DNA of 64,000 nucleotides from Paramacrobiotus metropolitanus (lineage: Eukaryota; Tardigrada; Eutardigrada; Parachela; Macrobiotidae). The notes under the pieces are model-generated. The model saw nothing but the letters and a program-made list of their open reading frames with translations, did no database searches and was not told where the DNA came from. The stretch is from NCBI RefSeq assembly GCF_019649055.1, contig NW_026570288.1, positions 310,001 through 374,000 of the forward strand, in the 5' to 3' direction. A program made the position numbers and the translations under genes. Shown piece after piece: positions 5,253-54,753 of this stretch (within the stretch, counting starts at the first letter, position 1; the number at the start of each line of letters is the position of its first letter).

Positions 5253-8200
5253 TTACATGTGCGTGGCGACAACACCTAGCAGCCAAAACGTCTCGCAGAG
5301 ACCTTTTCCCTGGAATCAACAATGCCTGCAGTCAAAGTTTGTCAAAAGAAATCAGTTGAACTGAACACCGGTACCTTCACATCAATAATACCCCGTGGTT
5401 GGAAAATATGCTCCGGTTTTCTTGCCAAAGCCTGTTTGGTTTCCAGGCTTATGTGAATCTTGGAGCCTAATATAGCCGTCTGTTTAATAATTTCTTCTTT
5501 AGCCAAAATATTAACTACCGTACCTTCTCCGTGGCTTTCCATTCTGCTGGCGGTATTCATAGTATCACCGAAACTACAATCAAATCCAAAGCAACTCTTT
5601 ACAAAATTAAAACCCGTAATGTAAGTATCGCTCTAATTACAGGCAATAACGTGGCATCCTGACACCTACGATCCCCGCAGCAATCGGCCCTGCAAAGTTT
5701 AAATACTTGTATTTCGTAATTGCCGACATAAAATACTCTACTATATATCTACAGTAATGTTTTACCAGTGTGGATGCCGATTCTGATTGGTAGATGCGTT
5801 GGCGAATTACACGTTGAATACTTTTCCATTACACGCAAGGCCAATGTGGCAATTTCATGGGCATGCCTATCGTTTCTCACTGGAGCACCACTTGCGACCT
5901 TTAACCGTTCACGAACAATCACATTTGCAACTGCCACCAATAAAATGAACACGTTACAGATCAAAGCGTACCACGTAGCCGTCCTTGATAGTTTCCACTT
6001 TATACACATCCAAATCATACAAGTGTTTATCCACCGACGTGTACAGGTGGTTGAGAAAGCGACCAACTTCCATTGGCGAAGTGGTCCTGCAGAACTGATC
6101 GAAACCCACCATACTGCTAAAGTATATGGTGACTGATTCGAAGGTCTCCGCATGTATTTGCAGTTTGTTGCGCAGAGCGGGGACCAAAGACCTGACACGA
6201 AAAATCTTTACCTTTACTGAATGAAACACCTGACAGTAACAGCGAGGATAAGTTTGCCCTTACGCTGGAATAATTTCAGCGAGTAGGTCATCCACTTTCT
6301 TGCTTTCCGACAGTAATTCAGCAGTGCGAATGCGAACAATGTCTTCCAGACGATCAGCGTGTTTTTGGAGGCGGTTGAGCAAGCTCTCCACCACATTTCC
6401 CGTCGGCTGATACGGTTCTAATTCGTTAACAACCTCGGCTATCGATGGTCGTGAGTCCGTATCAACGGAGCAGCACCACTGCAGAACATGGCGAATCTTC
6501 AGTTGAAAAATGGGATCGCGATACTGAATCGTATCTGTAACAGTTTATTCAATACAGCTCCCAATCTTTGTGTCAAATGGCAACGAAAACTGACCGATTT
6601 GCAAAGGTAGCAAGTTATTCGGCTTGACAGTATGACCCAACATAATCTCGCAGATAACGACACCCAGAGCAAAAATATCGGATTCTTGGGAACCACTGGG
6701 CGCGGCCTGGTCACGATGGCTGGAGCGTCGCCGAATCAGATGCATTATGACGCTGTCGCGTTTGGTTATTGCTCGCGACAGAACCGCCGAGCCGATATCG
6801 TTAATTTTGGCCACGAAGCGACTGTCAATGATTATGGTTTGGCTGGAAAGGCTGCCGTGCACTAATAACGGCGTTCTTTTGTGGATATAGTGTAAACCCT
6901 GTAAGACGTTGCAGTCTAGTTGCTGAAGTCGGGAAATAGTAGAAGATTGTGATAACGATACGACGTACCGCAATGATATTGAAAATGAGAAATAATTGGA
7001 TGGTTCCGTCGTTGATGATGGCTTCGTTTTGGAAAAGAGACTGCAGTGTTTCCCGTCCACCTTCCCAGACAATGTGACTGGACACTTCCAATAGAAGCAG
7101 CCCATAAAATTGTCCTATATTTTTGTGCCGCATTTCGCTCAACTGCAAGGTCAGTATTTTTTCCCAACGTGTTAATGTAGTGAATTTAAGCAGACGGCAC
7201 ACCAACCGTTAAGAGCGTTTTGCGCGCAAAAGAGGACAGCTCAACTTCGGTCAGCCGAATATGCACCGTGCGCATCCATACTGGTTGGTTTTTGTATCGA
7301 CCCATTTGTATACCGACGTGACCGCTCGTGCGGCGCTGGTTGCGGGGGAGTTGAATGTGTTCGGATTGCAGCAGCCATCTGGTATTTTTTTGCGATTGGT
7401 TAAGATGTCTCCTAGAAATGTAAAAGGTTAAGATTACTATCGTATTAAAGTAATCTTTCTTACACTTCGACGTACAGGTGTTTTTTCGCAGATACTGTAC
7501 ATGTATTTTATGGTACCATTTACGCATTTGTTACGGTACTCTGTACGACATTTACATCAACCTGCTTATTTCGTTTAGTTTTAGATTCTGTTTCTCTTTG
7601 TAAACTTTGATTACTTACGTGTACAAAATTACCGATACAATCACAATGGCGCACACGCCAATGATTCCCAAGACTGAGCCAATGATGATGGTCCGCGTTC
7701 CTGAAATTCGGCTTGTATGTTCTGCAGTTGCGGATGAGAACGCTTTTTGTGTTTCAGTTTACCGCGGTCCATAACAAAGCAGTTGGAAACTCGATATCCG
7801 CAGATTGGCTTATTCAGGGGCTGATTCGCTGTGTCGCCCCAGTTACCAGCCAGAATCGAGGTCTCACCAATTTCTTGGTTTTTTGCATCGTATGCCCATG
7901 CTGGCTGAATGGTCAACCGTCAAAGTGTAAACTTGTATGTAAAGAATGTGAAGTCTTTGAATGTATTTGTATTTACCTGAAATTCTTGACTAACTGGGTT
8001 GAGTTTATAAAACACCGAATCCACCAAGCGCATTCCCAGCGGTCCCATTACAACTTGCCGTAAGACACCATTATCAAAGGTGCAATTTACGAAGAGGTTC
8101 AGAAAATCATTATAGGACAGCGCACTCAGCGGAATGGATGATTCATTCAGAGCCTTTCGGAAAAAAACCGGGTCAGATAAGCGGAATGAGTGAAGGTATC

Positions 8201-9917
8201 GATCGTTGCTCCAGGAATCTACCTTTCCGACGGACAAGATCATTTCCGGAATGGCCATGGCGATCTCATTGTGCTGCCAAGAATTTGTTGATAACATGGT
8301 AGAAAAAACGCCCGCATAGTTCCGTTTCACGGGCTTACTAATTCATCGTATCCGTAAGTGAAGTTGTAGCTGCTGTCGGCTTTCACAGCAACAGCGTGCA
8401 GGAAGTCCGCTGCGGACTCGTAATCAATGGGGGTAAAGGTCACCTTAATGACATACTTGTAAGCTTGCCGGATGATCTAAAAACAAAAGTCCTTGGTGCT
8501 TTTTTGGATGATTACATAACACAGTCCAACAACCTCCTGTTCACAAGTGTTACAAAACAGTCGGTTATGCAACAAGAAAAGGAAGCAGCTGATAATGAAG
8601 TATAAAAAAGCACAATTTTGACGAGCAAACACCGCAAGTACTGTACCGTATCATCATCGTCTCCAACATTAACATCAAGCGGAAGGTATCCCACGCCCTG
8701 GTTGCACATGGGATGGATATAAACCTGATTTACACGCAAACTATTTTGTGAATTCCGTTTAACTAACGGAAAAATGATGTCTTACAAATTCACTACGTGT
8801 CATGTTTAGGGCATGTGCAGTAACCTGAAAGCAAAGAAAACTCTCCAACATAAAATTATCAAACGGGTGCGTTTTTTTTATTACCATTAATTTCCGCATT
8901 TGATCAGCCCGAGTAAATATGATGTAAACTGAAAACCGTAAAGGTTCAGTTACAATCTTTCGCTATCCGAGTAGGTACCGTGTACGAACAGCACACTTAC
9001 TGCGTGATTGGCTTTTAGCACGCAACAGTCGCGGAGTATAATCAGGATCCTTACTGGAATCATAATTTTCAACGTACAACTCGTATCCATTGGCGGCCGT
9101 GAGGACCGCTTGTAATCCGCGGCAGTTTGCTCCGATGAAACCCGATAGCGTCGTATAATTGCTGATCGCATCGCAGAATAGCGTGACCGTGGTCCAGAGG
9201 TAGTGGCGGAGAAAGGCCCGGATAGCCGGTACCTGATTACCTTGACTGGTTCCCCCGAATCCGACGACTGTTGAGTAGCGCCGGCGGTCGGTGAAGATAA
9301 CATCCGTCGATAGACTGTTTGGCAACAAACGCACGTTCTATGGTTTATCGATCGGCACTTATATTACGCGTCTGTTTACCTGGCGAGTAGCGGAACCTTG
9401 ACCTCTAGATTGGCCAGCAGAAAAAAGGTTGATTTTTCCGCGCAATTACGTAAAGTACACTGTGCAATGTAATTCTGTAACAATCTACTTACCACGAGCG
9501 AAATCTCCAAGAATAATCATTTCTGGACTACAACCTAGAAATTCTGTTTGATTACGGTAATTAATCGCCATCGACCAAAACTGACTTTTCGCGGAAAGCC
9601 CTACCATGGGACAGCAAAATTGTAAGTCCCTCCATTTCTTGCAGTGCTTTATAAACTCGGCCGAGAAGTTCTGGCATTTCGTCTCCCGAAATCTTGCAGT
9701 CCGTGTTTCCAGGTTTGTAAACAGGAATGCGAGTTAAATTACCAAAGATGGCTGGGTATCTTTGAGCTGCGATGTCAAATGCGGCGTCGTAATATGGCAT
9801 AGCAGCGTAGTATCCAGATAGCCGGTTTTCACCGATAATAACCGTTATGAAATTCAACGCCCGGCATCCGGTCAACACCGTAACAATACCCAAAATCCGG
9901 AAGACGATATTACGCAT
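5253..9917 (-). CDS. Receptor guanylate cyclase, copy 2
   Basis: This is a complete multi-exon receptor guanylate cyclase with single-pass topology. The start at 9917 gives a signal peptide (MRNIVFRILGIVTVLTG...) followed by the ligand-binding block GYYAAMPYYDAAF. Ligand-binding exons continue at about 8970-9310 and down to 7750. The membrane exon is about 7617-7700. Kinase-homology exons lie at about 7190-7410 (NQSQKNTRW region), 6960-7160 (WEGGRETLQS) and 6560-6905 (HGSLSS). The dimerisation coil is about 6260-6535. Cyclase exons run from 6220 to 5400: [28 protein letters not shown], then [12 protein letters not shown]. The last exon (5253-5309) encodes GKGLCETFWLL and ends in TAA; the acceptor CAG precedes GGAAAAGG. 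The first metal Asp is Ser (codon at 6113-6115). Catalysis is therefore doubtful, although the fold is intact. Confidence 0.92.
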
Positions 9918-11257: not shown

Positions 11258-14200
11258 CTAAACTCTGGCTTTGAGCCAGAACGTTTCCATAAGGCCTTTG
11301 CCCTGTAAACACCGTCGACTGTCAAAAAGAAACAATAAACACATTGCAGTTACTTTCTCGCTACCTTGATCTGGGATATTCCGCGGCTTTCCAGATGGAA
11401 TTCCGGTGCAGCGCCGAGTAATAGTTTTGTATCGGGACTAACGTGTATCATCGAGCCTGAAAAGCATTGTAGAAGCTAAAACATACAGAGTACTTTTTAC
11501 AGGTTTTCTGGGTACGACTGTGTACGTCATGTACGCAGTATATGATCAGATTGTTTTGTATTCATACAGAGTATGTACATAATTTGCACAATAAACCAAC
11601 TTACCCTCTCCGTGACTTTCCATACGACTTGCCGTATTCATGGCATCTCCAAATCTGCCAAGTTACAAAAAAACAGTCGTACATTTGCGGTTAATATACT
11701 ACAAGTATGTAGTAAACATTCCAACAACGAGCGCTTTCTATTCCTTTGAGCTTTACGAATCGACAGATACGTACAAGCAATATCGCGGCATTTTTACGCC
11801 AACAAATCCCGCTGCTATGGGCCCTGCGACACAAAAAAATAAATGTTTCAGTTGTAAGCCACAAGTGTACGGTATTTTCTTTTCACGCCCACCACTGTGA
11901 ATACCCATACGAATGGGCAAGTGGACCTTGAATTTCGTCGTTGTACACATATGCAGAATGGACAGCGCCATACGAGCAATCTCAAGCGCATGCTGGTCCC
12001 CATTGCGAATGGGGATACCGCTCACCACCTGTATAAAGGTCACTTTAGCTTTAAGGCTCTAAATCGTGCGGAAAGGGTCAATATCTCTTACCACATATCC
12101 ATCCTTTATTGTCTCAACTTTGTACACATCAAAAGCTGAAATCTGCTTGTCGAGAGCGGTGTACAATTCGTTGAGGAACTGTCCAACTTCTAATGGTGTT
12201 TGGGATTTGCAGAACTGATCGAATCCCAACATACTGCTGAAGTAGAGCGTCACACAGCTGAAGGTCTCCGCCGGAACCGGGACCTTGTTTCGTAACGAAG
12301 ACACTAGAGACCTGCCACAAATCGCTGCTGACTTCAGGTAGATGCTAAATAAGTACATTCAAGACTTACGGAGGTATTATTTCTGCTAACAACAGATCGA
12401 CCTTCCTTTGTTCCATCATTAGTTCTTCGGTCCGGTGTATTACAGTGGTCTCTAACTGATCCGCGTATTTTTCTAACCGACTGACTAAGCTACTGACCAC
12501 TGTACCACGCGGCTGATAGTCGCTGACGCGAGCTAGAATGTTCCAGATGGTTGGGCGCGCTTTGGGGTACACGGAGCAACACTGCTCAATTATAGACTTA
12601 ATTTCCAAGTGAAATTCTCCGACTGTCTTTATGGCATCTGAACAACCAAACTGAATTCGTATTTTTTCGTATGGAAGTCAGAAATTCCCGGCTTACCGAG
12701 TTGATAATCCTTGTCCGTTGCTACAATTTTTTCCTTTATTATTTCGTACAAAACGATACCGAGGCAGAATATATCCGCCTCAACGGTACCCACCACATGT
12801 GCTGAATTTTGGAAGAATTTAGCGTTCTCGTATTCTGGTGGCTGAACAACCGCTATGTCCACAAGATGGACATGCTTCTCCAGTACAAAGTGCGTTAATT
12901 TGGTAGTGGCGATATCGCAGATTTTGACTGTAAATCGACTATCTAAAATGACGGTTAGACTCGAGAGATTGCCGTGTTTTCGGAACGGTGTGTGATGGTG
13001 AATGTAGTTGACGCCCTGCAAAAAGACAAGAAATGCGACACCTTCAGAGCAAGCAGTGCCGGTAAGGTTAGCTTAAGTCCATGCAGTACCCGTAGTATGT
13101 TGAAGATCAGAAACAGCTGTACAGTTTTGTCCGGCATGACCGTTTCATTGGTTAAGAATGAGCGGAGCGTCCCCCGACCACCCTCCCAGATTACACAGAT
13201 GGCTTCATCCCAGAACACAACGCCGTAGAAACGGGCAATATTGTCATGCCTTAGCGTTCGCATCTACATCGAACCCATAGCGGACAGTGTAGACCAAAGT
13301 TGAATACGAATGATACGAAGCGTACTTGAGCAAAGACTTTCTGCGTGCTGGACTGATCCAACAGATCCGTCTCGTGTCCACTATGCGCCGTTTCATCATC
13401 ATCGTGATGGATGTACTTGCTGTGGACGCAGCGCAACCAAACCGGTTCATTGTTGTATCTCGCCATATGGATGCTGTTCCCGCAGGTATTGGACGGATGT
13501 ACCAGCATCTCCAGTAAATGCGTATTGAGATACCACCAGTTTGGTTGTTTGGTTTTGGATTTGCTGTGATGAACCCATTTTGTTACTTTTGTCATATGCT
13601 ACCTATAGTACAGGAAATAAACTTCGAAACTTTGCAGATTACGGTACACTGTACACACATGTAGTAGACAGCTGTTCCCATGAGAATACAAAACAGGGCG
13701 ATTATTCCGGATATGGCTCCAACAAATATTGGATTAAGCGCTGCAAAGGAGCAAATGTCAATGTGAGCCGGGAAAGCTATATCATATGCAACCACTGACT
13801 GATTTTGACAACACCACAGCGGTCGTTTCTATAACCGCACTTCGGGAGATTCAGCGGAGGTTCAGATGCACCATTCCATTCGTCTGCTAGTGGGGACGTC
13901 TTCAGTATAGCCTGAGCACGAGCTTTGAAGCGCCACGCCGGCTGCAAAAAAAAATAAATACGCTTTCGCAGCGCAAGTGTATTAAGTTTGATTAGATAGA
14001 CATTGTACGAGTACATAGCAAAACCAACCTCAAATTGTCTAGTTGTCGTATTCAGTCGTAAAAATATGGTGTCACCTAATCGCATACCACTTGGTCCAAT
14101 GTCCACAGTACGCATGGATTCATGGTAAAATGTCCGATTGTAAAACAAGTTTAGGAAGCCTTGAACGCTCATTTCATCCAATGAAATGGCTGATTCGTTC

Positions 14201-16096
14201 AAGGCCTAAAAGCAGGCTGAGTTAGCTAGTACATTTCGTATTGTGCATGTACCCAGTCATCCAAACCAAAATCACTTACCTTTGCTACCGAAAGAATCAT
14301 TTCTGGGATCGATAGCACGAGCTCGTTATGCTGTAGTAGAAAATCATCGTAAATACAATTTTTTTCAAACACTTAGTTACATTTCATTGCAGTTACGTAT
14401 CTATAATAACTGTTAAGCAACATACCGTTTCGTCGAAAGTGTACGTATGACTGTACACGGCTTTTGCAGTTTCCCTAACTTTTTTCATAAACGGCTCAAT
14501 CTTTTCGTATTGAGGAAGGACAAAAGTCATTGCGACGATATATTTGTACGCTTCGAAAATCACCTGGAAATACGATTACATGACGTAATCACCTGGTCGT
14601 AAAAGCCGATCCATAATGGATATTGCGAGTAGAAAACTAAACTAAAAAAAAAGTAGCGCTTACATCGTCATCAGCGCTTCCCATATCCACTACGAGCGGT
14701 AAATAGTCCGGCCCTTGATTAGGTATGGAATGAATGAATACCTGCAATTCATGCACAACGCAATTACAACAATTCCCTCGTGCATTATCCTCACATTAAT
14801 AAATTCACGCTGCAGTGCTTACGTATTCGCTGTTGGTCATGTTCAGTCTGTAAGCAACGAGCTGCAATTGCAATCAATAATCCACAGCAACAATTTTAAG
14901 AATGACGTTAAAATGGCTTACCATCATTTTCCGAAGTTCATCAGCCCGAGTGAGAATAATCATCACTAAAATTTTATAATTTAGAAAAGCTGGTAAGCAA
15001 GGCACGAGTACCGTTAGGTCAAGGTAAAAACCTACTTACCCCTGCTTTGTGATTTGGCGCGTTGCAATCTGACCTCGTAATCGGGATTCGACCGGGAATC
15101 ATAGCTTTCCAAGTAGAACTCATAACCCGAATTACCGGATAACAATGGCTTCAGTGAGCGACAGTAGATCCCGAGAAAAGCGGAAATCGGCGGATACAGC
15201 GTAATGTCGTCGCAGAACACCGTTACCGTTCTCCAGTTGTAATATTTCAAGAACGCCACGGTGGCCGGTGCCTGACTACCCAGGCTTGTTGGGGCAAATG
15301 ACAGAACTGTCGGATAGCGCTTCTTAATGGCCAGCCGAGCGTCCACCCCGGTACTATTCCATAAAAAGTGAGATCGATCTTCTCGAGCTCCAAATAGAGC
15401 ATGGTTTTGAACTGTACATACCTCATCAGCAACGGCACATTGACTTCTACAAATTACATGTTCAAGCAGCACGCACATAATGAGATAGTTTAAGGATATG
15501 ATCATTCAGTTCACCTCGGGCAAAGTCTCCAAGTGTCATCATCTCCAGACTGCATCCTGAAAATTTATTGCTCTTTCGCGTTCATATACGTAATTCTCAA
15601 GGCCGATAGTCTCATAGTTATTATGAAAATACAATGCTTAAGCAACTATGTTAGCAAAATAGCCGAATATACAAAAGTTGGCCATTTTATAGGGTTTTTA
15701 AGTAAGTATTGCTAATAAACAAATGTTTGGCTTAAAGTTGCGTCTATTTACTGTTTATTACACATGCGCAAAAGAAACTGTACCGGATGACATCATTAGG
15801 GGAAATCCCTGGATATTTTGTAGTAAATCGTAAATTTCCCCCGTAACCGCATACATCGCCGACGCAGCATCTCCACAATCTGGTAGTCCCGGTTTATGAA
15901 AAACCTGTCGGGTGTAGTTGACAAACAGTGCTGGATATGCTTCCGCAACCATTTGCAGAGCAACATCAAAGTACGGCAGGGCTGCATAGTAACCGTATAA
16001 CGGATTATCGCCGATGGACACAATGATGATATTCAGACTGCTGGACTGTTGTACCACACCCGTAACCACGCAGACCGTTATGAATCTTGCGAACAT
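11258..16096 (-). CDS. Receptor guanylate cyclase, copy 3
   Basis: This is a complete receptor guanylate cyclase of about 22 exons. I chose the ATG at 16096 ([13 protein letters not shown]...) because it opens a signal peptide; an in-frame ATG at 16228 would add 44 polar residues. Exon 1 ends at a GTACAG donor near 15800. Ligand-binding exons include about 15050-15345 ([13 protein letters not shown]) and 13950-14205. The membrane exon is about 13640-13740. The juxtamembrane and kinase-homology exons are about 13330-13590 ([12 protein letters not shown]), 13075-13260 ([10 protein letters not shown]) and 12660-13020 ([10 protein letters not shown]). The coil is 12370-12605. Cyclase exons are 12090-12320 ([18 protein letters not shown]), 11890-12025, a short MPRYC exon near 11800-11830, and 11600-11650 ([13 protein letters not shown]). 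The last exon encodes [14 protein letters not shown] and stops at 11258-11260. The first metal-binding Asp is Ser (12233-12235). Confidence 0.92.
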
Positions 16097-17006: not shown

Positions 17007-20000
17007 TTAAATTACAGCGCTTCTTGCCGGCTTGAGCCAGTATGTATCAATCCATCCTTTTCCCTGAAATGTAAATTTTAAGTAGTATTACGCGAATGCA
17101 TATTTTGTTATATTGATGGCCTTTTCCCAATAAAGGATTTAGATAGTGTACATTCACCAGGGTTACCCGTACGGTTCATTTGGATGCTACACTGTTACTT
17201 ATTACCTTGACGTTGATCTGTCCACGTGGTTCAAGGAAAAATTCCCCATTCGTTTCCAGTAGACGCTTTGTGTCAGGGCTTACATGGATTTTTCTCTCTG
17301 CGCGAAACCAGATCCATGAAAAGAAATCGTAGCGAAACATAATGTGTCGTATATTTGACAATTCACCCTCTCCGTGACTTTCCATTCTACTGGCTGTGTT
17401 GATGGTGTCCCCAAAACTGCATCACGTAAAATCTCGTTTAGATAAACATTTGACATTTCGTAAACATTGGCGAAACTGGACTGCTTCTTAGTAAATAGTT
17501 AAAATACTGACATGCAATAACGGGGCATCAAAAGTCCAACAAAACCCGCAGCTACCGGTCCTACAAAAATCTCATGTCATACACGTCTCCAAATTCTGCT
17601 TTTCGGAACAATAAGAATTACCACTATGAATGCCGATTCTGATTGGAAGATATGTTTTAAGATTATCCGTTGTGCAGTTGCGTAAGACGCGGAGCGCCAG
17701 GGACGCTATCTGGTTGCAGTGTGCGTTATCGTTCCTGATTGGAACCCCGCTGGCAACCTGTGCTCGCAACGAAAAAGCGATTTCTATAGGTCGGTAACGA
17801 AAGTACCGAGTTTTAGTTAACCTACGACGTAACCGTCTTTGATGGTCTCCACTTTGTATACGTCGAACGGGACAATCTGATTATCCACAAACGTGTACAG
17901 CTCATTGAGAAAGGTGCACACTTCGAAGGGTGTCCGGGATTTGCAGAAGACGTCGAAGCCCACCATACTGCTAAAGTATAACGTCAAGCAGTCGTACGAT
18001 TCCGGAGGCACGAGGATCTTATTCCGCAGTGAAGAAACTAATGATCTAAAACGTAAAGTAACGATGATAATCCGTGAAATAAACTTAAGGAAGGACAACG
18101 GTCATTACGGTGGGATCATTTCGGCCAGAAGCAGGTCAACTTTCTTCCGTTCTAGTAAAAGCTCCTCGGTGCGGTGCGCAACCGTCTGCTCCAGATGTTC
18201 GGCATGCTTTTCAAGGCGGTTAATCAAACTACCGACAACTGTGCCACTCGGCTGGTATTTGCCCAACGTATTCATAATACTCCTGACGGTCGGTCGGACA
18301 ATGGGATCAACGGCGCAACACTGACCAATCACGTTGCGAGCTTGCGTTTGTAGTGGAGTCGTTACTTTCATGCTCTCTAATAATCAAAAAAATGTTAGCA
18401 ACGTTATTTTTTTTTTACATAGCCACATTCCGGCTTGCTGAGTTCAACTTGTTGCAGTAAAAGAAGCCGGTTACTTTACCAAGTTGAATTTCTTTGGCCG
18501 AGATCACCGCATGTCCACGTAATATCTCAAAGAAAATTACTCCGAGGGAGTAAACATCCGCCTCCTGGGAAGCACTACCAGACTGTCCTTCGGGAGCTAC
18601 AACCACATCTCCACCGTTAATGTCGACCTCTCTTCTGGCCGTCATTCGCAAGAGTTTGGCAGTGATATCGCAGATTTTTGCCGTAAAGCGATCATCCAAA
18701 ATCACGCTGAGACTGGAAAGACTGCCGTGCTTTCGGAAAGGCGTCCTGTTATGAATGTAATTGAGGCCCTACAAACAGCCATGTATTGACAAATAGTCAT
18801 GTATTTGCCAAACTTGGATATGCAGCACTTCTACATATATACGTCATTAAGGAGCTGTTTTTACCGTTAAAATGTTGAACAGGAAATAGGTTTGTATCGC
18901 ACTATCCGCGATGATTGTTTCGTGGGCGAAAATGGAGCGCAGCGTGCCACGACCGGCTTCCCATACGACACACATGGTTTTCTCCAGAAAACCGATCCCA
19001 TAAAAAGTCGCAATGCAGTCATTGTGCAGGGCTTTAATCTGCATAATTACAATATATGCACATGACATCGCTTTCACCAGCTTTGCGCCAACTGTGTGCA
19101 TTTCATGGAACAACGTCCAGTCTTGAAACAGTACTCGTATTGTTCTGGTGTACCTGAGCGAGACATTTCCGTAGAGCTGCATTAGAAACCAGTTCGTCCT
19201 CTCGCACTCCACTGTCGGGAATCAGACGTAGCCATGCCGGTTCGCCTTGATATTTGCCCACCTCAATGACATCGCATTTTGATGCTGGGCTTGGCAGCTC
19301 CAGTAGGTTTGCATCCAACAGCCACCAATTGGATTGATCGTTATAAGCGGATCGCTTTCTACAACCGAGACACAGTGTCATCAAGCAACGCACGACAACA
19401 GATCAGTGAGATCACCAAAGAAATCCTTTTTCTCACATGCAGTAGATCGAAATTCCAATCAGGATAGCGGAAACAGCAATTATACCACACAAAGCGCCAA
19501 CGATTATAGGCATGATGTCTGCAACATTCAATAATCAGGCACTAGAGGAAGTTGATGCGTCATGCACCATGTCGTCAATACCGGCGTCAGTTGTGCAGCG
19601 GTCATTCCGATATCCGCAAGCCGGACGGTTTAACGGTGGGGCGTAATTGCCGTTCCATTCATCCGCCAAGTGGGACAGTTTTGTAAAGACGCGGGTAACG
19701 GCATCGTAATGCCATGCAATCTGCAGAACAAAATTGCAATCAGGTTAAAACACAATTATTCACACCATACGAAACAGGAACCAATCTCTCTTCTTTTATG
19801 GGTATATTATTAGATCCACTTGTCAATGACCAATATATAGTACCGTATTTGTAATACACCGTATGGAAAATTGTTTTACCTCCAACATCGGTTTTACTCC
19901 TATCGCAAAGGTCAAGAAGAAATTGATGAGAAATTGTTTACTTTACTGACATCCTTTTAACTGCATAATATTAATTTTTGCAAAAGGCAACAACAGATGC

Positions 20001-22345
20001 AGTCATCATGTCATGCAAGAATTACATCGTTGATATACTGTACAAAAAAACTGCGATTGTATATACTCGTATAATATATATAAACTTTCGAGTCTGATAT
20101 CTATAAAACAAATTTCAGAAACTACTTTTTTATGCCTGAGATGCGAGGTGTTCATTAGTTACCTCGAACGTCCTGCTCGTCGTATTCAAGCGCGAATAGA
20201 AAGTATCACATAGCCGCATTCCCACGGGACTGAACACAACAGATCGAAAATCACCAATATCGAATCGCTTGCTCAGAAACAAATTGAGGAATCCCTTGGG
20301 TTCCATGCCGCTGATCGGCGTCGCGGATTCGTTAATTGCCTGGAAAAGTGCATTGAGACAATGAGTAAATTTGCATGTGCAGACGTTTCTGTTCAACCAG
20401 TTTAATACCTTTGCCATAGAGAAGATCATCTCGGGAATGGCTTGGGTGATTTCATTGCGCTGCAGAAACATCCGCGTAAATATCGGTGCAAATTGTAGAA
20501 CCAGGCAACCTCAGACTGCTGACCTTTTCATTGTAATCGTAGGTGTAATTATAGACGTTCCTTGCCCGTTTGTTCACGATGTCCATGTAGGACTGTATGC
20601 GACCGTAGTCGGGCAAGACGAAGGTCAAGGCGATCAGCTGTTTATAGGCGTTGAAGATTATCTAACAATTACTCGTCGATAATTGATTACGCTGGATGTC
20701 GATGACCTTGGTGTGATCGATTACCTGATCGTCAGGCGATCCCGTATCGACTTCCAGTGGGATATAATCAGGTCCTTGGTTTGGTACCGCGTGAATGTAT
20801 ACCTGCGCAGTTCAAACGATTATCAGCCAGAAAACCTTAGCGTATGACAGTGCAGTTCTTTTACTTACATATTCGCTGTTTGTCATATTCAGCTTGTGTG
20901 CAATAATCTGAAAAATTATAGACCAAAACAAATCAATTTCCATTGCCGAACAAAGTTTCTAAATGTAACGGTACTATAACCAAAATTAACCAAAATTTAC
21001 CATAATTTTCCGTAATTCGTCCGCTCTAGTCAGAATGATTATCACTGCAAAATATGAATACTTCGTATGAAAATTTAGACATAGAACTATAAAAATATAG
21101 AAACTTTGACGAAGATTTGTTTGTTTAAAATAACGACGATGAGATTTTAACCAACCTCTGCTCTGCGACTTTGCTCGCTTTAATCTTGCTTCGTAACCGG
21201 GATCAGTTTTCGAATCGTAGCTTTCCAGATAGAATTCATAGCCGGCATTGCCGCTGAGCATCGGCCTGAGTGTGCGGCACAGAGTACCCAGAAAGGCACT
21301 GGCCGGCGGATGTAGAATGAGATCATCGCAAAATAACGTGACAGTGCTCCATTTATAATATTTCAGCAGGGAAATGGTGGCTGGTGCCTGGTTGCCTTGG
21401 CTTGTGGATCCGAATCCCAGAAATGTAGGGTACCGTTGCCGATTCACAAACCTTCCATCAGTTGATGTGCTGCAGTCGACAATCTTACAACTGAATATTC
21501 TCAACTTAATAAAATCTGCACCACAATAAAACCTTACCTGGCAAATAGCGGCACGTTTACCTCTGTAACAAAGAATTCATGTACGTACATAGTTTTGATG
21601 AACAACTACAGCAATTTTGTACAGGCGTCTACGATAATACGTGGTAGATCACAAAACTGAAATAAGGCCAAACAGTTTTAATTTGGATAATTTTGATTAT
21701 TGTCCATTAACACAGACAATTATATAAAAGTATTGGTTTTTACCGAATAAGCAGCAAAGCAGTTTATCGACGCCATTTCGGTGTGCGCCCAAACTTATTA
21801 AGTGTGCCACCAAAGACATCGGCTTACGACGTGTATTACTGCGGACATTCATGCATATTTTATTTTAGATTTGCCTCGAATTTAACCCAACTGATTGTAC
21901 CTCGGGAAAAATCAGCAAGAGTCAGCATTTCGGGACTGCAGCCTGAAACAATCCGCAAAAATGAACTGTAATATTATTTTACTAATAGCATCCGGACACT
22001 GCCGTATTTAGCACATTTACCCGGCGACATGAGAATAGGAAATCCGTCTGTTTTCTGCAGAAGATCGTAGATATCTCCGGTTGTGGCGTACATCTCCGCT
22101 GCAGCGTCCAAACAGTCCCGCAATCCTGGTTTGTGAAATACCTGTACGGTATGATTGCGGAAAATATCGGGATACATGGAGGCAGCCTTCTGAAATGCCA
22201 CTTCGTAATGCGGCCATGAAGCATAGAATCCATACAGCGGGTTGTCGCCGATGGTCACCACGATGAAGGTCAAACGGCGACTGCTTATACCACTTAGCAA
22301 AATCAGCAAAACTGTGACAGTAAGTATGGAGATTCCGCATTTCAT
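17007..22345 (-). CDS. Receptor guanylate cyclase, copy 4
   Basis: This is the cleanest copy and shows about 22 exons. The start at 22345 ([18 protein letters not shown]) gives a strong signal peptide. Exon 1 ends at 22021 with a GTAAAT donor. Next come [14 protein letters not shown] (about 21900-21941), NVPLFAR (about 21540), a large ligand-binding exon (about 21155-21478, [13 protein letters not shown]), then exons down to about 19560. The membrane exon (about 19436-19525) reads [14 protein letters not shown]. Kinase-homology exons are about 19160-19370 ([12 protein letters not shown]), 18865-19045 ([10 protein letters not shown]) and 18470-18770 (KHGSLSS). The coil is 18105-18371. Cyclase exons run from 18045 to 17210 with [47 protein letters not shown]. 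The final exon encodes [13 protein letters not shown] and stops at 17007-17009. Ser replaces the first metal Asp (17967-17969). It is most similar to copy 5. Confidence 0.93.
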
Positions 22346-32100: not shown

Positions 32101-34495
32101 AGGCTAGCTACATAGAAAGGTCATAAGTTACACGAACAAAGATGTGTTCTCCACAAGCTACCTCGAAGCGCCGGCTGGTAACGTTTAGTCGAGAATAGTA
32201 CGTGTCGCACAAACGCATACCAACCGGTCCGATGACAACTGGTCGGAAGTCGCCGATATCAAACCTCCGATTCAAAAACAGATTAAGAAATCCGCGGGTG
32301 TCAATATCGCTGATCGGCGTCCTTGACTCGTTTAACGCCTACGTGAAACACATTTTTCAGAAGTAATTATTTACGAATGTGGGTCGATAAACTGAATAAT
32401 TCACCTTCGATATGGAGAAGATCATTTCTGGAATTGCTTGGGTAATTTCGTTGTGCTAAAATGCACCAGTTATAAAAGATCGATAGATTTAGTATTTATT
32501 AATAATTATTACTTTCTTAGATTTATGTCCACGTTAGTTTTCTTACCACGTCATTAAAATCATAAGACATATTGTACCGCTTTTCGGCGGTCTTGGTAAC
32601 AGCATTCATATAAGTTTGTATGCGGTCGTATTGCGGAAGGACAAAGGTCATGGCTATTAAATATTTGTAGGCTTCGAAAACCACCTGAAAATTCACACAA
32701 AATGATTCAGCACATATAAATGGCATTGTCACATTGACAAACTCTGTAGTCTGTACTGCGTTACCTTGTCATCAGGCGTTCCCATATCGACGTCTAAAGG
32801 AATATAATCCGGACCTTGGTTGGGAATTGCATTAATAAAGACCTGAAGGAAGGATAAAATATCGATGCAGTTTCCTTTCACTCAAACACAGCTGAATGTC
32901 GATCTCCAGGAAACCTTCTTACATATTCACTGTTGGTCATGTTCAGCTTGTACGCGATAGCCTACAACAAACATCTGGAATCGATAAACAGCTTATCGAT
33001 AACAAAAACCTGCGGCTTAATCTACAACACTCCTTTTTATGTTTTATTTTTCTTATAAAAACATTAATTTACCATTATTTTACGGAGCTCGTCGGATCTT
33101 GTCAAAATAATGATCACTATAATTCAAAAGCAGGGTGAACTCAATTAAGTAAATAGAATATTGTGTGATTTCCCTGAATACCGCGGCTTTGTGATTTGGC
33201 ACGCAATAACCGGGCTTCGTAGCCGGGATCGGTTTTGGAATCGTAGCTTTCAAAGTAAAACTCGTAGCCGGCGTTCCCTGTCAGCATTGGTCGTAAGGAA
33301 CGGCAATACGTTCCCAAAAGGCCCCCGCTGGCGGATGCATACTAAGGTCATCGCAGAATAACGTCAGAGTATTCCATTTATAGTATTTTAAGAAGGCAAT
33401 CGTCGCCGGGGCTTGGCTGCCTTGATTAGTTGAGCCGAAGGTTAGGAAGGTTGGGTAGCGCTTTCGATTGACAAATTTCGCATCGGTGGACGTGCTGAAA
33501 TGTGAAATTATATGTTTTACTGTGGCGGAGGATCTGGATTTCATTATATTAAGTGCAATTACCTGGCTAATAACGGCACGTTTATCTCTGAAATAAGATG
33601 GATCTGATATAAATCTTAAACGTCAACATGTACATTTAGGCACATGCAAAATAAGAAAGCACTCAAATAGCCAACCCAGGCACGCGACTTTTTCTGTGCG
33701 CTCCTATTTAATGCAGCACGTAAAGCAAGTAAAACGCACTCCCAAAAATTAGTAATTAATAAAGTGGGTTATAACTGTAGCAAAATTTCACCTCGTGCGA
33801 AATCCGCCAGGGCCAACATTTCCGGACTGCAGCCTGCAATAGAATAAATTACAAAAAAATCATAGTCATTCAAAATGCATATGAAAATTATGCTCATATT
33901 TATAGATGTTTTGGTAATTGAGCTATACACTTTAATATTGCTTATTTTCTTAGTACTGTGTAAAACACAGATATAACGCGATTCCGCGCCTTGAGGCAAA
34001 TATTTCCCAAATCTTATATGAACTTATCTGCATGAGACGTTTGACTATCCCGTTATATGTAGGTACGAGTATAGATGAAAAATGCTCTCAAGCAGAATTT
34101 GCATAAGAAAGTCCGATGTTCGCTAGTTCTGTTCAGTTACTTACGCATTAATATACACTGTATGTACCTGGCGACATTAGAATGGAAAAACCATCCGTTT
34201 TTTGCAGTAGATCGTAGATCTCCCCAGTTGTACCGTACATTTCGGACGCGGCATCCAAACAATCCTGAAGGTACGGCTTATGGAAGACCTGTCGGGTGAA
34301 ATTGCGAAACACATCCGGATACGTTCGGGAGGCAATGCCAAAAGCTACATCGTAATGCGGCAGTGCGGCATAATATCCGTATAACGGATTATCACCCAGT
34401 GTCACTATGATGAAATTTAATTGCCGGGAAAAAGCGTTCCGTATACAGTTATGCAGCAGTATTAAGGCCAAATAATTTCGGTAATACAGTTGCAT
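29113..34495 (-). CDS. Receptor guanylate cyclase, copy 5 (one apparent frameshift)
   Basis: The full exon set is present. The start at 34495 (MQLYYRNYLALILLHN...) opens a signal peptide and the ligand-binding region ([14 protein letters not shown]). Small exons lie at about 33785-33835 (CSPEMLALADFARG) and 33565. A large exon spans 33185-33505 ([13 protein letters not shown]). The membrane exon is about 31661-31745 (DLMPIIVGAVCG). Kinase-homology exons are about 31390-31570 (SNWWLLDGNLLE), 31110-31285 and 30730-31035. The coil is 30394-30660. Cyclase exons run 30335-29660 ([41 protein letters not shown]). The last exon ([18 protein letters not shown]) stops at 29113-29115. In the large exon the frame shifts after GAF (about 33315-33319): compared with copy 4, one base is missing before TGGGAACG, and the expected GTYCRSLRPML continues in the next frame. 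This is either a real pseudogenising deletion or an assembly error. Confidence 0.88.
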
Positions 34496-43187: not shown

Positions 43188-43327
43188 ATATTCTTATAAT
43201 TGATTCCTTCTTTTTCTTGTCATTTAATTTTCGGTTTGCGTTTAGTGTTTATCTCGACATACATTTATTTAATTATGTCGTTCGGCCGCAGAGGTTTATT
43301 GTAAAGTTAGCGAATTAATATGTCGAC

Positions 43328-47449: not shown

Positions 47450-48101
47450 AGTTTCGGCAGAAACTTTCTGCTGACAATTAATTATGCTCCTTTGTACTGT
47501 GTTCAGTTATAATACTTATCGTTAATGCCGTTTGTTGCAGGCACACAGCGTTAGTTACATGCGCAAAATGTGAATGACTACACATGCTGCTTGCAAATAT
47601 AATGTAGCGTACCGTAATTAACCAATTAAGTTAATGTTTTGATTGCTTGGAGCGGCAACCATTAATGCCGTATTAAGAGCAAAAAGCCGCCAACAGAATC
47701 CAGTCTGGTTTTCAGTAAATAATACTAAGTACATCGCCTGCTGTTCACATGCCGGTAACTTGGTAAAGCCGTGAATCACAACCGGAAAGAAGAAAATATT
47801 TTGCAGACAATTCTGCAGTTCATTGGTATTTACCGCAAACCAAATAAACAGTTTGTTTTAAGCAACAGCCTCGCTTGCGCAGACTTCTTCAGGCAGGAAT
47901 ACATCGCAGCCAAAACACCACTCGAAAACTTTACTTACTTGTCAAAGCTCATTGTCACAAATATTACTAAATTGCCGGTTCTATCACAACCGAAAATAAA
48001 AATACATAATTTGTTTTTTTGTCGTATTACACATACAACGCTATCAACATCGGTGCAACAGTATTAAGAAAAATGCATTTTTTTCTTATTGCTGTGGCTA
48101 G
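47450..48101. other. Intergenic, copy 6 to chitinase B
   Basis: About 650 bp containing the chitinase B promoter and the 3' flank of receptor cyclase copy 6. No repeat or gene recognised. Confidence 0.45.
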
Positions 48102-51100
48102 TTACGATTCTTGTACAAGCCAAAATGTTTCCACTTGCCCTTTTCCCTAAAAACAAACACAAAACAAAAAATAAGAATATGGTAAAGCTATGGTGCATTA
48201 TCTTTCTTTTATACGTTACCGAGGCGCAACGACAACTGACCTTCACTGTGATAATTCCTCTGGAAGACAGTACAAAACGTGGATGACGCTTAAGAAGCTT
48301 AGCCGTTTCTTCACTAATGTGAATTTTTAAAGCTGCAAAAACCGTTATTCTCTAAAGCGCACAAGCCGCAAACTCAAAAATGCGAAAACGTACTTTCGCC
48401 ATGGCTTTCCATGCGACTGGCAGTGTTCATGGTGTCACCAAACCTACATCCAAAGTATCTGTAATTTCTGTTAACGGGCAAATAAATGACAAACACATTA
48501 TTCAGTTTGTAATTAACATACAGGCAATATCTCGGCATTTTCAGCCCGACAAATCCTGCAGCAATGGGACCTGCAGCGAAACCGTTCAGTTCCTACAAAG
48601 TCAGTTAGAATGGCGCAGACCTGGGCAGTTATGGAAAATGCAACCACCGTTAGAGTTACGAGTTACAGGTAGCGTGCGAGTTACGCTACGAATTACGCTG
48701 TTTATGCAAGTAAAACCGAGTTTCGAGTTATACCGCGAGTTACGCTACCATACACAATGTATACAAATTTTGGGCGAGTTACGTTAGAGTAAAGTTTTTT
48801 GGGTAGCGAGTTACGCTGCAGAGTTACGTTAAAACTCGATAACTCGTGTTAAGTTATAGAGTTAAGTTATAACTGCCCAGGTCTGGGACTCAATGGCGTA
48901 AGAAACTGGAAAGAAAATCTAACCTGTGTGTATTCCAATGCGTATCGGCAGAAACTTTTTAAGACTCTCAGGTGTGCAGTTCCTTAAAATCCTTAATGCC
49001 ACCGCTGCGATCTCGGTCGCATGGTGATCATAATTCCGTATAGGTACGCCGCTCGCCACCACGTACCCATCCTTAATCGTCTCTACTTTATACACGTCGA
49101 ACGTCAGCAGCTGACTGTCCATAAACGTGTACAGATCGTTGAGAAAATTCTGGGCATCGATCGGTGCCGATGAACTGCAGAACACATCGAATCCCACCAT
49201 ACTACTGAACATGATGGTCACTGAGTCGTACGTCTCCGGTGGAACAAGGACCTTGTTTCGCAAACTCGGAACCAGGGACCTTTAAACATACCGTCCAATT
49301 TTATACTGCTCTTTACGCATTATGGGTTGCCAGCAAATGTTGCCTTACGGTGGAATAACTTCGCCGAGGAGTGCGTCGACCTTGGCCCGTTCGCTGAGCA
49401 GCTCCTGGGTTCGCACGGCCACGATGTTCTCTAGATTTTCCGCGTGCTGCTCCAGTCGGTTCAGCAGGCTGCTAACAATTGTGCCACCCGGTCGATATTT
49501 TCCCAGCTTTGCCATAACCGCCTTCAGGGTCGGTCGCGATCGCGCGTTCAGTAAACAGCATTCACTGATGACCTTTCCGAGCTGGTCTTGGAAAGGGGAC
49601 TTAGAAAAGCCTTGCTGTGTCTGCAAAAAGAGTAGTTTTGTACACATAAGGTCCTTGTTTATACAGCCTAGAGTAGTGGCCTTTTTTCATGCGCACTATA
49701 AAACTGCCAAGGCTGGCTTTGATTTCGTATTGTGCAACACTTTCGTTTGGTTGATTGCAGTCTTTATTCCATCAGCTGCATGTCTTACTAAATTTCAGTA
49801 GATCATCGGGCGTTGCTTTAACTCCATTGCAAATCTCGATGAGAAGCACGCCCAATGCGTACAAATCGGCTTCCTTTGAGCCACAAAATTCGGGATTATC
49901 ATTTTCCGGTGGCATTAGGACATCGGTTTTGGAGAGCCGGCTGCTCTTGGATACCGATTGCATTACGACGATGGAAGCGACATCGACTAACTTGGCAGTG
50001 AAACGACTATCCAGCACAACGCATAAGCTAGATAGGCTTCCATGGAAGAACGCTGATGATGCATCATGGATATAAGCCAAACCCTACAAATTCTTGGATG
50101 GTAAATCTGCTACGAAAGCGATAAAATTTCGAAGTTTACCGTAAGGACGTTGAAAATAAAGAACAGTTGGACAGCTGCGTCCGATACTATAGTTTCACTG
50201 GAGAATAAACTCCGCATTGTCCTCCGACCGGCTTCCCACACGATGGACAGCTTCTGCTTGGCAAGATGGAGGCCCACAAAATGTCCGACATTATCGTGGC
50301 GCAGTAAGCGCAACTGTAACGAAACTGTGTCGGCTGCGTAGAATACAACGCAATGGCTTTTCTTATTTCCTCTGTCATTAACTGACGCACCTGAGCAAGA
50401 TGAACTCGTAAGGGATGATTAGCTAGTAAATCATTTTGTGTTATGAAAACTGGTTCGCTGCGCATCCAAACGATTTCCCCTCCCAGTTTCGCCATGGATA
50501 TTACGGAATCGTATTTTGGTATCAAACTGTCTTCTTTTCTTGTTGTACTGATGTTTTTTGAAAAGGGAAATTGCAGAGCTTCGCCTTCCAAATGCCACCA
50601 ATTGCTTAAGTCGATTGGTCCGCGACGAAGTCTGAAATCATGTCAATAACAAATTATAGCAAAATGACAGACCGACACGTGCAGCGCGTGAATCGTCAGT
50701 AAAACGCCAATGTGGTTCGATATTGCACAAGGCAAAGTAGGCCGTTGTAGAGCCAGTCGATGACCTTTTGCATTTTAAAGGTCAATAAAATCCGTGTTTG
50801 CGTAATGTTTGTCGGCCACTTACACAAAACCGAAGACATAACCGAATCCAGCTGCACACACAATTAGGATCCCGCAGATGCAACCAATAATGATGCTTCG
50901 CATGTCTGCCGAATAGTCCATAAAATGTCATTCCACAGGCAGTTTACCGTTGTTTCTGTAGGCGATCAAGCGGACATTAAATTTACCGTTTTGTTCTGAC
51001 TGGCACCGGTCGTGCCGGTATCCACAGGTGGGCTCGTTAGCCGGTGCTGCATAGACACCGTTCCATTCATCCGCCAGGATCGATGTCTTGCTGATGATTT

Positions 51101-54100
51101 TCGATGGAAAGTCGTAATACCAAGCCGGCTATGAGAGGCATCTAATTTGATGACTTGCATAAAATTATGCAAGAGAAAAGCAAGCACGTACCTCAAATTG
51201 TCGGGTCGTGGTGTTTAGACGCGAATAAATTGTATTGGACATCCGCATCCCATCCGAGCCGATCATTAAGCGCCGGATACCGGTTTCAAAACTCTTGTTG
51301 AGAAACGCTTGTCGAAAGTGTTTGGTAGTCATTCGGTCCACTGGAAGCGCTGATTCACTGAGCACCTATTATGAAACGTATATACGTATGTTTCATATTT
51401 TATTATGTAATCTCTTGTATTTAAATTTGTCCTGCTGCGAATACCGTGACGCCTCTATTTTTACTATATTACTAAAGTTTATTTGGTGTAGTTAAGTGTA
51501 AAAGCGGGGTAAGAGTTGAAGAGCGGACGGGTAAATATTCGTTTTCTGTGTAAAACAAAATAAACACTTAAGTGTTGTATCAGCAATTAATTAATTTTGG
51601 GTTCTCATACGTTTCGCAGTAATGTCACAGTACACGCTTTACGCTTTGCAAGTTCCATTTGTAGGGATGTCATTCTTTACACAGCTGTTATATACGGGTA
51701 CATGGGAAATACAACGTTACGGCCCGGGCAACCCGTACAAATTCTACTAGGAAGATTATGTTGTCATTATCCTCACCGTTCCAATAGCATAGATCAGTTC
51801 CGGTATCGCCAACGTTATTTCATTGTTCTGCGAAAGACAACCCACAGATTTACAGCAAATTCATCGCCGACCGGAAATGATGCGGCATTACTTTCTCATC
51901 CAGGCTGTAGGGATGGGAGTAGTTGCGCTCTGCATCCCGGGCCACCGTCTCGATAAACGGGGACAATTTGTTATAGTCAGGCAGGTGGAAACTCATCGTA
52001 ACCAGATGTTTGTAAGCTTGGAAGACAATCTGCCCAACAATCAGGTTTTTACGCTCATCAGTGTGGTATATACATATGTGTACAAATAAATGCAATAATC
52101 AGCGGCTGTATTGACGCGTACGTCATCGTCAGGAGCGCCGGTATCGATTGTCAAGGGCAGATATTCTGGGCCTTGTATCGGAATTGTGTGAAGGAACACC
52201 TTAAAACCAACAACCAATCAATGGCAATACAAAAATTGTCCCAGTAACTTATTTTGCAAACACTACCAAAGCCTCTTCTATAGAATACAAAATAGGTATT
52301 TTATAGGCTTTGCACCAACCCGACAAATATAGGCTAACTTGCTGACCCTTCTTAAAGCGATTCAAATTAAACAGCATTGCTTTATATTTATTATGGTTAA
52401 TTGACTATTGCTTGTAGTATATATGCCAGCCGATACTTTTAAATTTCCAATGAAAGTAAGGCGCCAGCACAGCATTATCAATAGCATCGCGAAATGCGGC
52501 GTGTTATGATTTTACGCTTTCTATCCTTGTTTTGTGAGGATGTCACTGCCGACCGACTTACAAATTCGTCCTTCGCCATTCCAAGTTTGTGGGCTGTTAT
52601 CTGGAACGCAGCACAAATTATACAAATGAAAATGGATGAAATTTTGTTGTTCGGGATTAACAAGTTTTCTATCTGTAATGTATATATGCAATACGTCTCA
52701 GAAATTAAAGACGATATTCGAAAAAACGATAGAATAAAAAATTAAAAAATAATATCGCTTGACAGTACAATTTGAGACTGATAGGCGTAATATAAGAACT
52801 TGCCATTATTTTTCGCAATTCATCTGCGCGGGTCAACAGAATTATCACTGCAAGCCAAAAACAAAGAATGAACCTAATGTGAATTATAATGTTAATTAGT
52901 ATTCAAATAAATCCCTGCCTCGGCTTTGTGATCGGGCTCTTCGCAAACGTGCTTCGTAGTCGGGATTCGATCTGGAATCGTAGCTCTCCATGTAGAACTC
53001 GAATTCGCCGGGGACCGAAAACAGCGTCTTCATGGCGCGACAGTTGGCCGACAAGAACGCCGCGATACTGGTGTATTTCAGCAGATCATCGCAGAACAAC
53101 GTCAGTGTCTTCCATCTGTAGTACCTGAGGAACGCTCGCGCCGCCGCCGCGTGCGCCCCCTGCCCCACCGCGCCAAAGGTCAACATGGTAGGATAGCGTT
53201 TCCGGTTGGCGAACATGGGATCGGCTGATGTGCTGTCGATAGATCCATAATTTATTACCGTGGATCCGCAGTCAATTAAACGTTTGCGTGATCTTGTACC
53301 TTGCCAAAAGAGGGACATCAATTTCTGTAAATACATAATGTTGTCTGTAATATCATGCCGGGATTGATGTCGGTAATTTGTGCAGTACAAAGTCAATGCG
53401 CCGGTAAATAAGTTATCTGTACCTCGTGCCAGATCCCCGAGCGGCATCAGTTCCGGACTGCAACCTATAAAATAGCATGATTACAATGTTCCTTGAATTT
53501 CCGCGAAGTTTCAAGTTTCAAAGATACATACATGTAATATGGAAACGTAAATAATTGCCTGCATAATTTAACGTATCACGTAAGCGAGTCATCCGGGATT
53601 TCGATTGATTACAGCTTTACTAGTCGGCTTATTTGTGTGCAAGTGCATCTGGGGACAGGAAACAGCCACCGAAAAAAACACCATTAAGCCATAAACAGCG
53701 TAATTCATAAAAACCGCCAAGTTGCTTACAATAATTTGACTGTATTCATGCTATAGAAAGTTTCAGCAGATGTTTTCATCGTGTACCTGCTTTGGAACTT
53801 CAGTTCTTAAAAAAATAATTTCATTAGGACAAAATAGTGTGCCTTTGCGTGACCCTGCTCAAAATGAACTTTAAAACCAAAACTTCTATTTATACACCAA
53901 TCATGTTTGGTCTAATTTGAAATTTATTTTTTTCATTTCAGTGTGCGAGAGAAATTGCAGGAATTAATGTTGCAACTGCTAATCTTAAGACATTCACCAA
54001 ACGGAATTTTCCCGGGAAGTACTCGTATCATCCGTCTGGTAACTTAATCGCTCTTCCGCCACGTGTACTTATGTTGCCACCTGATTCGAGTGTATTGCTA

Positions 54101-54753
54101 TCAAGTGTATTGTGTGCAGGTGGAGAAGTAAATAATAATAAAGTAGTAGCAATTTTGAAGGCGTTCCACAAGAACTACGAAATAAACCAACGCTAACGAA
54201 TTCGCCTGATGAGAGAACTGTACGAAAAGACATACCGACGTATGCATATAATATCTTGCTCCTAAAAACGGAAACTATGAAACCATCTGCAAATTTTTTA
54301 TGGATACAGAGAAGGCGACAGTCAAGCAGACTTGAAGTCCCTTTGTGTCTGCTGCACAAGAATTCTTGTATCGTAAAAATAATAATGAAATTGGAGGAAC
54401 ACTTAAGCGGGTAACATTGCGCCGTTTGTTACATTTGCTAGTTGACCTGGCGAGAGAAGCATAGTGAAGCCATCGGTCCTCATAACGGCATCATAAATCT
54501 CGCCCGTCACCGCGAACATTTCCGCCGCCGCATCGGGACACGCCGGAAGACCGGGTTTGTGGAAGATCTGCTTGGAGTAGTTGCTGAAAACGCGGGGATA
54601 GCGCTCCTCCGCCACGTGCAGTGCGCCGTCAAAATACGGTGCCGCGGCATAATACCCATACGACGGATTATCACCAATGGTAATAATGATTAAATTCACA
54701 GGCGCGGCTTGGATGCCGGTAAATCCAGTTATAACAATTATACTTAATAACAT
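48102..54753 (-). CDS. Receptor guanylate cyclase, copy 6
   Basis: This is the largest and most divergent copy and is complete. The ATG at 54753 opens a signal peptide ([18 protein letters not shown]); an in-frame ATG at 54855 would add 34 residues. Exon 1 ends near 54450 and intron 1 is about 1 kb. Ligand-binding exons include about 52915-53235 ([13 protein letters not shown]), 51850-52030 and 51195-51365. The membrane exon is about 50820-50905 ([15 protein letters not shown]). Kinase-homology exons are about 50400-50640 ([12 protein letters not shown]), 50140-50315 and 49795-50085. The coil is 49345-49620. The first two cyclase exons of the paralogues are fused here (48920-49280, FSSMVGFD through [10 protein letters not shown]). 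Short exons carry MPRYCL and [13 protein letters not shown]. The last exon (48102-48146) encodes [14 protein letters not shown]. Ser replaces the first metal Asp (49201-49203). A MITE lies in the following intron. Confidence 0.92.
48616..48885. mobile_element. MITE in an intron of receptor cyclase copy 6
   Basis: A perfect 17-bp terminal inverted repeat, CAGACCTGGGCAGTTAT (48616-48632) and its complement (48869-48885), bounds 270 bp filled with degenerate GAGTTACG/GTTACGCT repeats. The CAG-G-TGGGCA terminus resembles hAT families. The adjacent 8-mers are not identical; AATGGCG recurs on both sides but six bases away on the right. It lies between the [10 protein letters not shown] and MPRYC exons and does not disrupt coding. 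Confidence 0.8.

Follow-up and report, generated by a model that had tools for sequence, protein, structure and literature searches.

We analyzed a 64,000-nucleotide window of the genome of the tardigrade Paramacrobiotus metropolitanus (C68:310001-374000, where C68 is our label for contig NW_026570288.1, within a 169.8 Mb assembly of 533 contigs), whose minus strand carries genes for receptor guanylyl cyclases (rGCs), five of them within the window and a sixth for the most part. A tardigrade CAHS protein matches this assembly at E 3e-69, and it has 20 matches there altogether. The spliced models of the five window copies have 19–22 exons, encode 967–1001 amino acids (aa) and contain zero stops. 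An ANF-receptor-type ligand domain is recognized as PF01094 in copy 2 (E 2.3e-14, above its cut-off), with homologous exons in copies 1, 3, 4 and 5 and in the partial sixth gene. A hydrophobic segment and a linker are visible by eye in the gene models, the kinase homology matches PF07714 in copy 2 (E 2.1e-14), and the C-terminal class III cyclase domain is identified by PF00211 in copy 2 (E 1.4e-53) and by a match to NPR1 in copy 4. The sixth gene, which goes beyond the original prediction for this locus, has exon-bearing frames at about 95-4106 and a metal exon that spans the left window edge (C68:309808-310014, row L006) and reads FSSMVGFD there too.

Class III cyclases share each active site between subunits, one contributing the metal Asps and the other the residues for base reading and the transition state. 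As originally predicted, the motifs FSSM(V/L)GFD and KVETIKDGY are found in all five window domains, and the Ser at the first metal position is read as AGT in each (Table 1). The alignment of the copy 4 domain with NPR1 of the solved structures (E 1.6e-56) runs gapless across both metal motifs: Ser falls at the Asp of FSDIVGFT, and the Thr of that motif is matched by the Asp of GFD, which confirms the original reading of the first metal position. An alignment slip was considered and rejected, since the match is gapless. The second metal motif is VETIKDGY in all five copies, so that the second Asp is kept while the Gly before it is replaced by Lys, a change that the original prediction had not noted. 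The guanine-reading Glu and Cys and the catalytic Asn and Arg are present in all five, again as predicted, and the five genes have a 13-residue and an 11-residue motif in common. A homodimer of these domains would not carry both metal Asps, the first being Ser in the five copies and in 14/14 rows of the clade described below. A structure model of a 120-aa exon piece reached a mean predicted local distance difference test score (pLDDT) of 63.8, too weak for side-chain placement, and was not used.

Table 1. Coordinates of the receptor guanylyl cyclase copies, their motifs and neighboring features within the window
Feature	Position	Strand	Details
Sixth, partial copy	about 1..4106	-	ectodomain, transmembrane, kinase-homology and linker exons; cyclase exons left of window
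rGC copy 1	5274..9917	-	21 modeled exons, 994 aa, no stop; model plus conserved exons
Copy 1 cyclase domain	5274..6191	-	metal exon 5972-6191
Copy 1 FSSMVGFD	6098-6121	-	Ser codon AGT 6113-6115
Copy 1 VETIKDGY	from 5998 downwards	-	
Copy 1 MPRYC	5643-5657	-	
Copy 1 13-residue motif	5534-5572	-	
rGC copy 2	11273..16096	-	21 exons, 1001 aa; ANF_receptor, kinase homology and cyclase domains
Copy 2 FSSMLGFD	12218-12241	-	Ser codon AGT 12233-12235
rGC copy 3	17034..22345	-	21 exons, 990 aa; model
Copy 3 FSSMVGFD	17952-17975	-	Ser codon AGT 17967-17969
Reverse transcriptase and endonuclease-like ORF	25753-28631	-	PF00078 E 3.1e-29
rGC copy 4	29131..34420	-	967 aa model; start codon outside model
Copy 4 FSSMVGFD	30238-30261	-	Ser codon AGT 30253-30255
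GH family 18 ORF	38076-39476	-	chitinase-like
GH family 18 ORF	45132-46469	-	chitinase-like
rGC copy 5	48241..54753	-	19 exons, 972 aa; last exon outside model
Copy 5 FSSMVGFD	49186-49209	-	Ser codon AGT 49201-49203

The cyclase domain is under purifying selection, in line with the selection originally proposed. The comparison of nonsynonymous with synonymous divergence (dN/dS) across copies was informative in part: synonymous sites are saturated in the whole-gene comparison of all ten window-copy pairs, so the ratio is unusable in nearly all pairs, and what can be read is dN together with two exon ratios. In the cyclase domain, dN ranges from 0.24 to 0.32 in nine pairs and drops to 0.10 for copies 3 and 4, and in every pair it is lower than ectodomain dN. 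The finite exon dN/dS values, obtained for two of six pairs among L001, L003, L004 and L005, are 0.07 and 0.06.

To place the window copies in their family, the copy 1 metal exon was used as the query of a genome-wide search in which 150 of 329 candidates were scored, a sample that leans towards the query's relatives, so that the family is probably larger. Individual listed metal exons are referred to as rows (L numbers), and most counts use 145 rows, five further exons having been added later. The first metal residue is Asp in 95/150 exons and something else in the other 55 (Ser, Ala, His, Tyr, Glu, Ile, Thr, Lys, Gly or Arg), while the guanine-reading Glu is kept in 150/150. The canonical FSDIVGFT is found in 17/145 rows, and the best tree has 15 changes of the first Asp, 3 of them forced by well-supported branches. 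The substitution in the window copies is one among many erosions of the metal site across a very large family, a breadth that the original prediction had no means of seeing.

Some further observations concern the family as a whole. The 150 listed exons form 144 clusters at 97% nucleotide identity, so that this 170 Mb animal genome has no fewer than 144 different metal exons of receptor cyclases, often clustered (C6, C10, C68, C72, C74, C81, C87). Six rows have lost the second Asp (to Ser, Ala or Glu) and kept the first (L034, L030, L058, L137, L027 and L028, with L027 and L034 near-identical); Asn and Arg are kept in all five that are readable, and this is another route to a broken metal site. 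The guanine-reading Cys is Val or Ser (PHYV, PKYS) in L085, L140, L040 and L110, a possible change of base preference.

The search for relatives of the window copies defined a single clade: receptors reading FSS(M/L).GFD form one group of 14 rows with support 90, within which the 12 FSSM rows alone have support 95. Eleven of the 14 lie on C68 in a single orientation over ∼220 kb, one lies on C169, and the two FSSLTGFD rows are on C123 and C19. Ser, Asp, Lys, the second Asp and the Gly that follows it are invariant across the clade. The change from Asp (GAY) to Ser (AGY) takes two base changes, and the Ser codons (AGT in 12/14 rows, AGC in 2/14) fit a single origin, as expected for the old, shared substitution originally proposed. 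For the tree the trait columns were masked and 94 columns were used; 62/141 of its inner branches are open.

Two other rows bear on the order in which these changes arose: L008 reads FSDLVGFD and VETIKDSY, and L011 reads FSTLVGFD and IETIKDSY. Forcing both to join the FSS clade improved the likelihood over that of the free tree by 23.3 units, with an approximately unbiased test value (p-AU) of 0.827, which is no proof, as the group was named after the tree had been seen and the free quick tree had placed L008 and L011 elsewhere. The Asp at the Thr position also co-occurs with an intact first Asp in L008, L010 and L078. Its presence in those three rows, together with the possible placement of L008 in the clade, makes this Asp probably older than the loss of the first Asp. 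If the grouping of L008 and L011 holds, Thr-to-Asp and Gly-to-Lys probably came first and the loss of the first Asp later. The two substitutions occur together in 16/145 rows, with Asp but no Lys in 3 and Lys but no Asp in 3, and kinship explains most of this co-occurrence.

We then compared metal-site loss with the state of the other catalytic residues. The downstream motifs were readable for Cys in 136/145 rows and for Asn and Arg in 122/145, the other 23/145 being without a readable Asn/Arg exon. Two apparent Asn/Arg losses were dropped as unreliable, one in L063, where no acceptor site could be seen, and one in L013, whose reading frame appears broken; L193, a near-identical twin of L013, keeps both residues. 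Among rows that have lost the first Asp, Glu is kept in 55/55, Cys in 52/55, and Asn and Arg in 50/51 scored, the exception being L021, which lost Arg. All four residues are kept in 48/52 of the scored rows, or 48/51 without the unreliable L063. Because Glu, Cys, Asn and Arg are the set given by the beta subunit of soluble guanylyl cyclase (GC), this retention suggests that the FSS receptors are beta-type subunits that require a metal-bearing partner, a reading to which we give slightly better than even credence.

The genome also holds a mirror class of eight receptors with intact (F/Y)SDIV.FT and VETIGD(A/C)Y, in seven of which both Asn and Arg are gone; the two positions read Gln and Lys in L019, L043 and L052, Ala and Lys in L073, Val and Lys in L098, Val and Gln in L102, and Thr and Lys in L105, while L070 has lost Asn alone. 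One of these alpha-like rows, L098, has PF01094 matches ∼6 kb upstream on the same strand. Candidate metal-bearing partners among the 145 rows (122 of them scored for Asn/Arg) comprise 10 strictly complete rows and the 8 alpha-like rows. Asn/Arg loss occurs in 8/20 rows with canonical metal motifs versus 1/104 others (Fisher P 9e-7, four extra readable rows included), and in 8/19 versus 1/103 after near-identical copies are collapsed, which speaks for the beta-type reading. The mirror pattern of Asn/Arg loss and metal loss is suggestive of two complementary half-site classes, short of proof.

Several points weigh against the beta-type reading and the complementarity behind it. The split by canonical metal motifs was chosen after the table had been seen. 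Split by the first Asp alone, the figures are 8/73 versus 1/51 (P 0.08), and before L063 and L013 were dropped they were 9/70 versus 2/52 (P 0.11). Only some five changes on the tree are enough to explain the Asn/Arg losses, and a kinship-corrected test of pairs, with 2 supported pairs and 5 in all, is without power. All six residues (both Asps, Glu, Cys, Asn and Arg) are kept in 55/122 scored rows, so the family need not work through heterodimers as a rule. The retention of Asn and Arg could be partly structural. Finally, erosion of the alpha half of the FSS domains is incomplete: the second Asp is retained, and the window copies also have the Arg of IR(I/M)GIH, presumably the counterpart of soluble GC alpha R574.

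If the FSS receptors are beta-type subunits, they would probably work only in a pair with a receptor that provides the metal. An FSS homodimer would be unable to build a normal two-metal site. Instead, the linker and cyclase domain of an FSS receptor would mediate pairing with another receptor that bears both metal Asps and is either complete or of the alpha type without Asn and Arg. The mixed dimer would have one working site, assembled from the partner's metals and the Glu, Cys, Asn and Arg of the FSS subunit. The other site would be dead, a pseudo-site with the conserved Ser, Asp and Lys in which the Lys–Asp pair may replace the metal and exclude nucleotide. Ligand binding to the ectodomain would then gate cyclic GMP (cGMP) output from the single site, and the emptied pseudo-site may even raise activity, by analogy with the D379A mutant of RGC1 in the NeoR/RGC1 pair. 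The residues, the clade, the purifying selection and the existence of possible partners are read from the sequence, while the pairing and the activity are inferred.

A wider layout can be proposed more tentatively, and we consider it possible but doubtful: dozens of diversified, metal-less 'tuning' rGCs would share a few 'co-receptor' cyclases that have the metals and are without Asn and Arg. Such an arrangement would resemble insect odorant receptors and their co-receptor, with the FSS clade as one tuning class bearing an Asp–Lys pair in its dead site, a parallel we offer with equal reserve. If this were true, cGMP would come from mixed dimers only, and the ectodomain repertoire would be free to expand.

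The original prediction had listed a pseudocyclase partner, a GTP sensor and an enzyme using the relocated Asp as functional options. The partner option is now the likeliest, because Glu, Cys, Asn and Arg are one soluble GC subunit's set, while the relocated-Asp enzyme has lost ground. A stricter version of the first option, a true pseudocyclase that forms no site with any partner and acts as a scaffold, decoy or dominant-negative subunit, seems unlikely to us. It would account for the lost first Asp, for Lys in place of the Gly before the second Asp, and for the Thr-to-Asp change, which should put a negative charge at the place of the triphosphate; the 15 first-Asp changes would likewise be expected if catalysis is often dispensable. 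What it leaves without evident need is the near-complete retention of Glu, Cys, Asn and Arg in rows that have lost the first Asp. Were the pseudo-site instead to bind GTP or another nucleotide without metal and so regulate the receptor or its partner, the kept base-reading residues and the five invariant residues of the 14-row clade listed above would make sense, and the non-catalytic site of NeoR/RGC1 does appear to regulate the catalytic one (PMC12264004). However, removal of the metal Asp in NeoR/RGC1 is argued in the same paper to stop nucleotide binding (PMC12264004), and the negative charge of an Asp in the phosphate loop would be expected to push the triphosphate away, so we regard such a sensor as improbable.

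An active homodimer in which the relocated Asp, or manganese, makes up for the lost Asp has in its favor that the second Asp is kept and that an Asp lies five residues on in 14/14 clade members. The same Asp is nevertheless found beside an intact first Asp in the three rows named above and probably came first, and 39/55 first-Asp-lost rows have a different residue at that position; we hold this explanation to be quite improbable. Least credible of all, at the level of a slim chance, are decaying gene copies or an assembly error. Copy 4 has an apparent frame break, L021 has lost a Tyr as well as its Arg, and the assembly contains five near-identical exon groups, yet 14 divergent copies share four substitutions (Ser, Asp, Lys and Gly) in metal exons without stops, and the saturation of synonymous sites between the five window copies speaks against this explanation too.

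The copies in the window are otherwise arranged as follows. The apparent frame break of copy 4 lies near 33320, in an ectodomain exon, at the one join of this model without a GT-AG pair; a pseudogene, an allele or an assembly error are candidate causes of the break. Copy 5 has a single ectodomain join without a GT-AG pair. Copies 3 and 4 are separated by a retroelement resembling a long interspersed nuclear element (LINE), in which the reverse transcriptase lies beside an endonuclease-like open reading frame (ORF) with matches below cut-off. Two glycoside hydrolase (GH) family 18 ORFs separate copies 4 and 5, and each has a weak C-terminal match to chitin binding that falls under the cut-off.

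Split-site cyclases are not new, nor are heterodimeric rGCs; the principle has been seen in ODR-1/DAF-11, soluble GC and NeoR. The scale of metal-site erosion, the coexistence of the two half-site classes within a single animal and the invariant residues of the dead site appear to be undescribed. We found no report of a tardigrade rGC expansion or metal-site loss in the literature searched, which leaves most subscription journals outside. The word 'cyclase' was not found in the available text of a paper that covers Paramacrobiotus metropolitanus (PMC11191345), and in that of the Hypsibius/Ramazzottius genome paper it occurs once, for adenylate cyclase (PMC5531438). A 2006 survey of the family included tardigrades only in an expressed sequence tag (EST) search, without nematode-type hits (PMC1435932). 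Our counts point to a large rGC repertoire in tardigrades. The idea of obligate heterodimeric rGCs rests mainly on one nematode pair, and one animal that naturally provides many candidates for each half makes the split-site idea directly testable by mixing domains.

Among known cyclases, NPR1 (GC-A) is the closest solved sequence to the FSS domain, but it has FSDIVGFT and VETIGDAY at the metal motifs. Its domain order is the same as that of the FSS receptors. Mammalian rGCs function as homodimers (PMC8045692). In transmembrane adenylyl cyclase, the metals come from the C1 domain and C2 makes the contacts of base and Asn/Arg, a division like the one proposed here, although both halves lie in one polypeptide and the enzyme is adenine-specific. 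The adenylyl cyclase C2 domain is without metal Asps. Its contacts are K938, D1018, N1025 and R1029 (PMC3591389).

Soluble GC alpha1/beta1 offers a close likeness in residues, the FSS domain carrying the beta set and the Asn/Arg-less receptors the alpha set, whereas the enzyme itself is cytosolic and haem-regulated. The first site of its beta1 subunit reads FSG..GFN. Alpha supplies D486 and D530 and beta supplies E473, C541, N548 and R552, and catalytic-domain homodimers of either subunit are inactive (PMC3591389). Among receptors, Caenorhabditis elegans ODR-1 and DAF-11 are alike in being rGCs proposed to be without complementary GTP-binding or Mg-binding residues and in having been shown to work together (PMC5225109; PMC8045692), as an obligate heterodimer with essential catalytic residues from each (PMC5225109). 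With the intracellular domains, the response was restored only when both were expressed, although the same review gives clues for homodimer action too (PMC8045692). That system differs in being one gene pair in a family of 27 (PMC5225109), and we liken it by description rather than residue by residue; in the tardigrade, 55/150 listed exons are without the first Asp and a distinct Asn/Arg-less class coexists with them. The NeoR/RGC1 pair of chytrid fungi likewise has one catalytic site per heterodimer, with NeoR supplying the metals and being without the Asn/Arg motif (T455, K459) (PMC12264004), the same Thr and Lys that are found in tardigrade L105. It differs in being a light receptor and in that natural RGC1 retains its metal Asps. 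The D379A mutant of RGC1, in which activity rises ninefold (PMC12264004), resembles the natural FSS state and is the more active form in the dimer.

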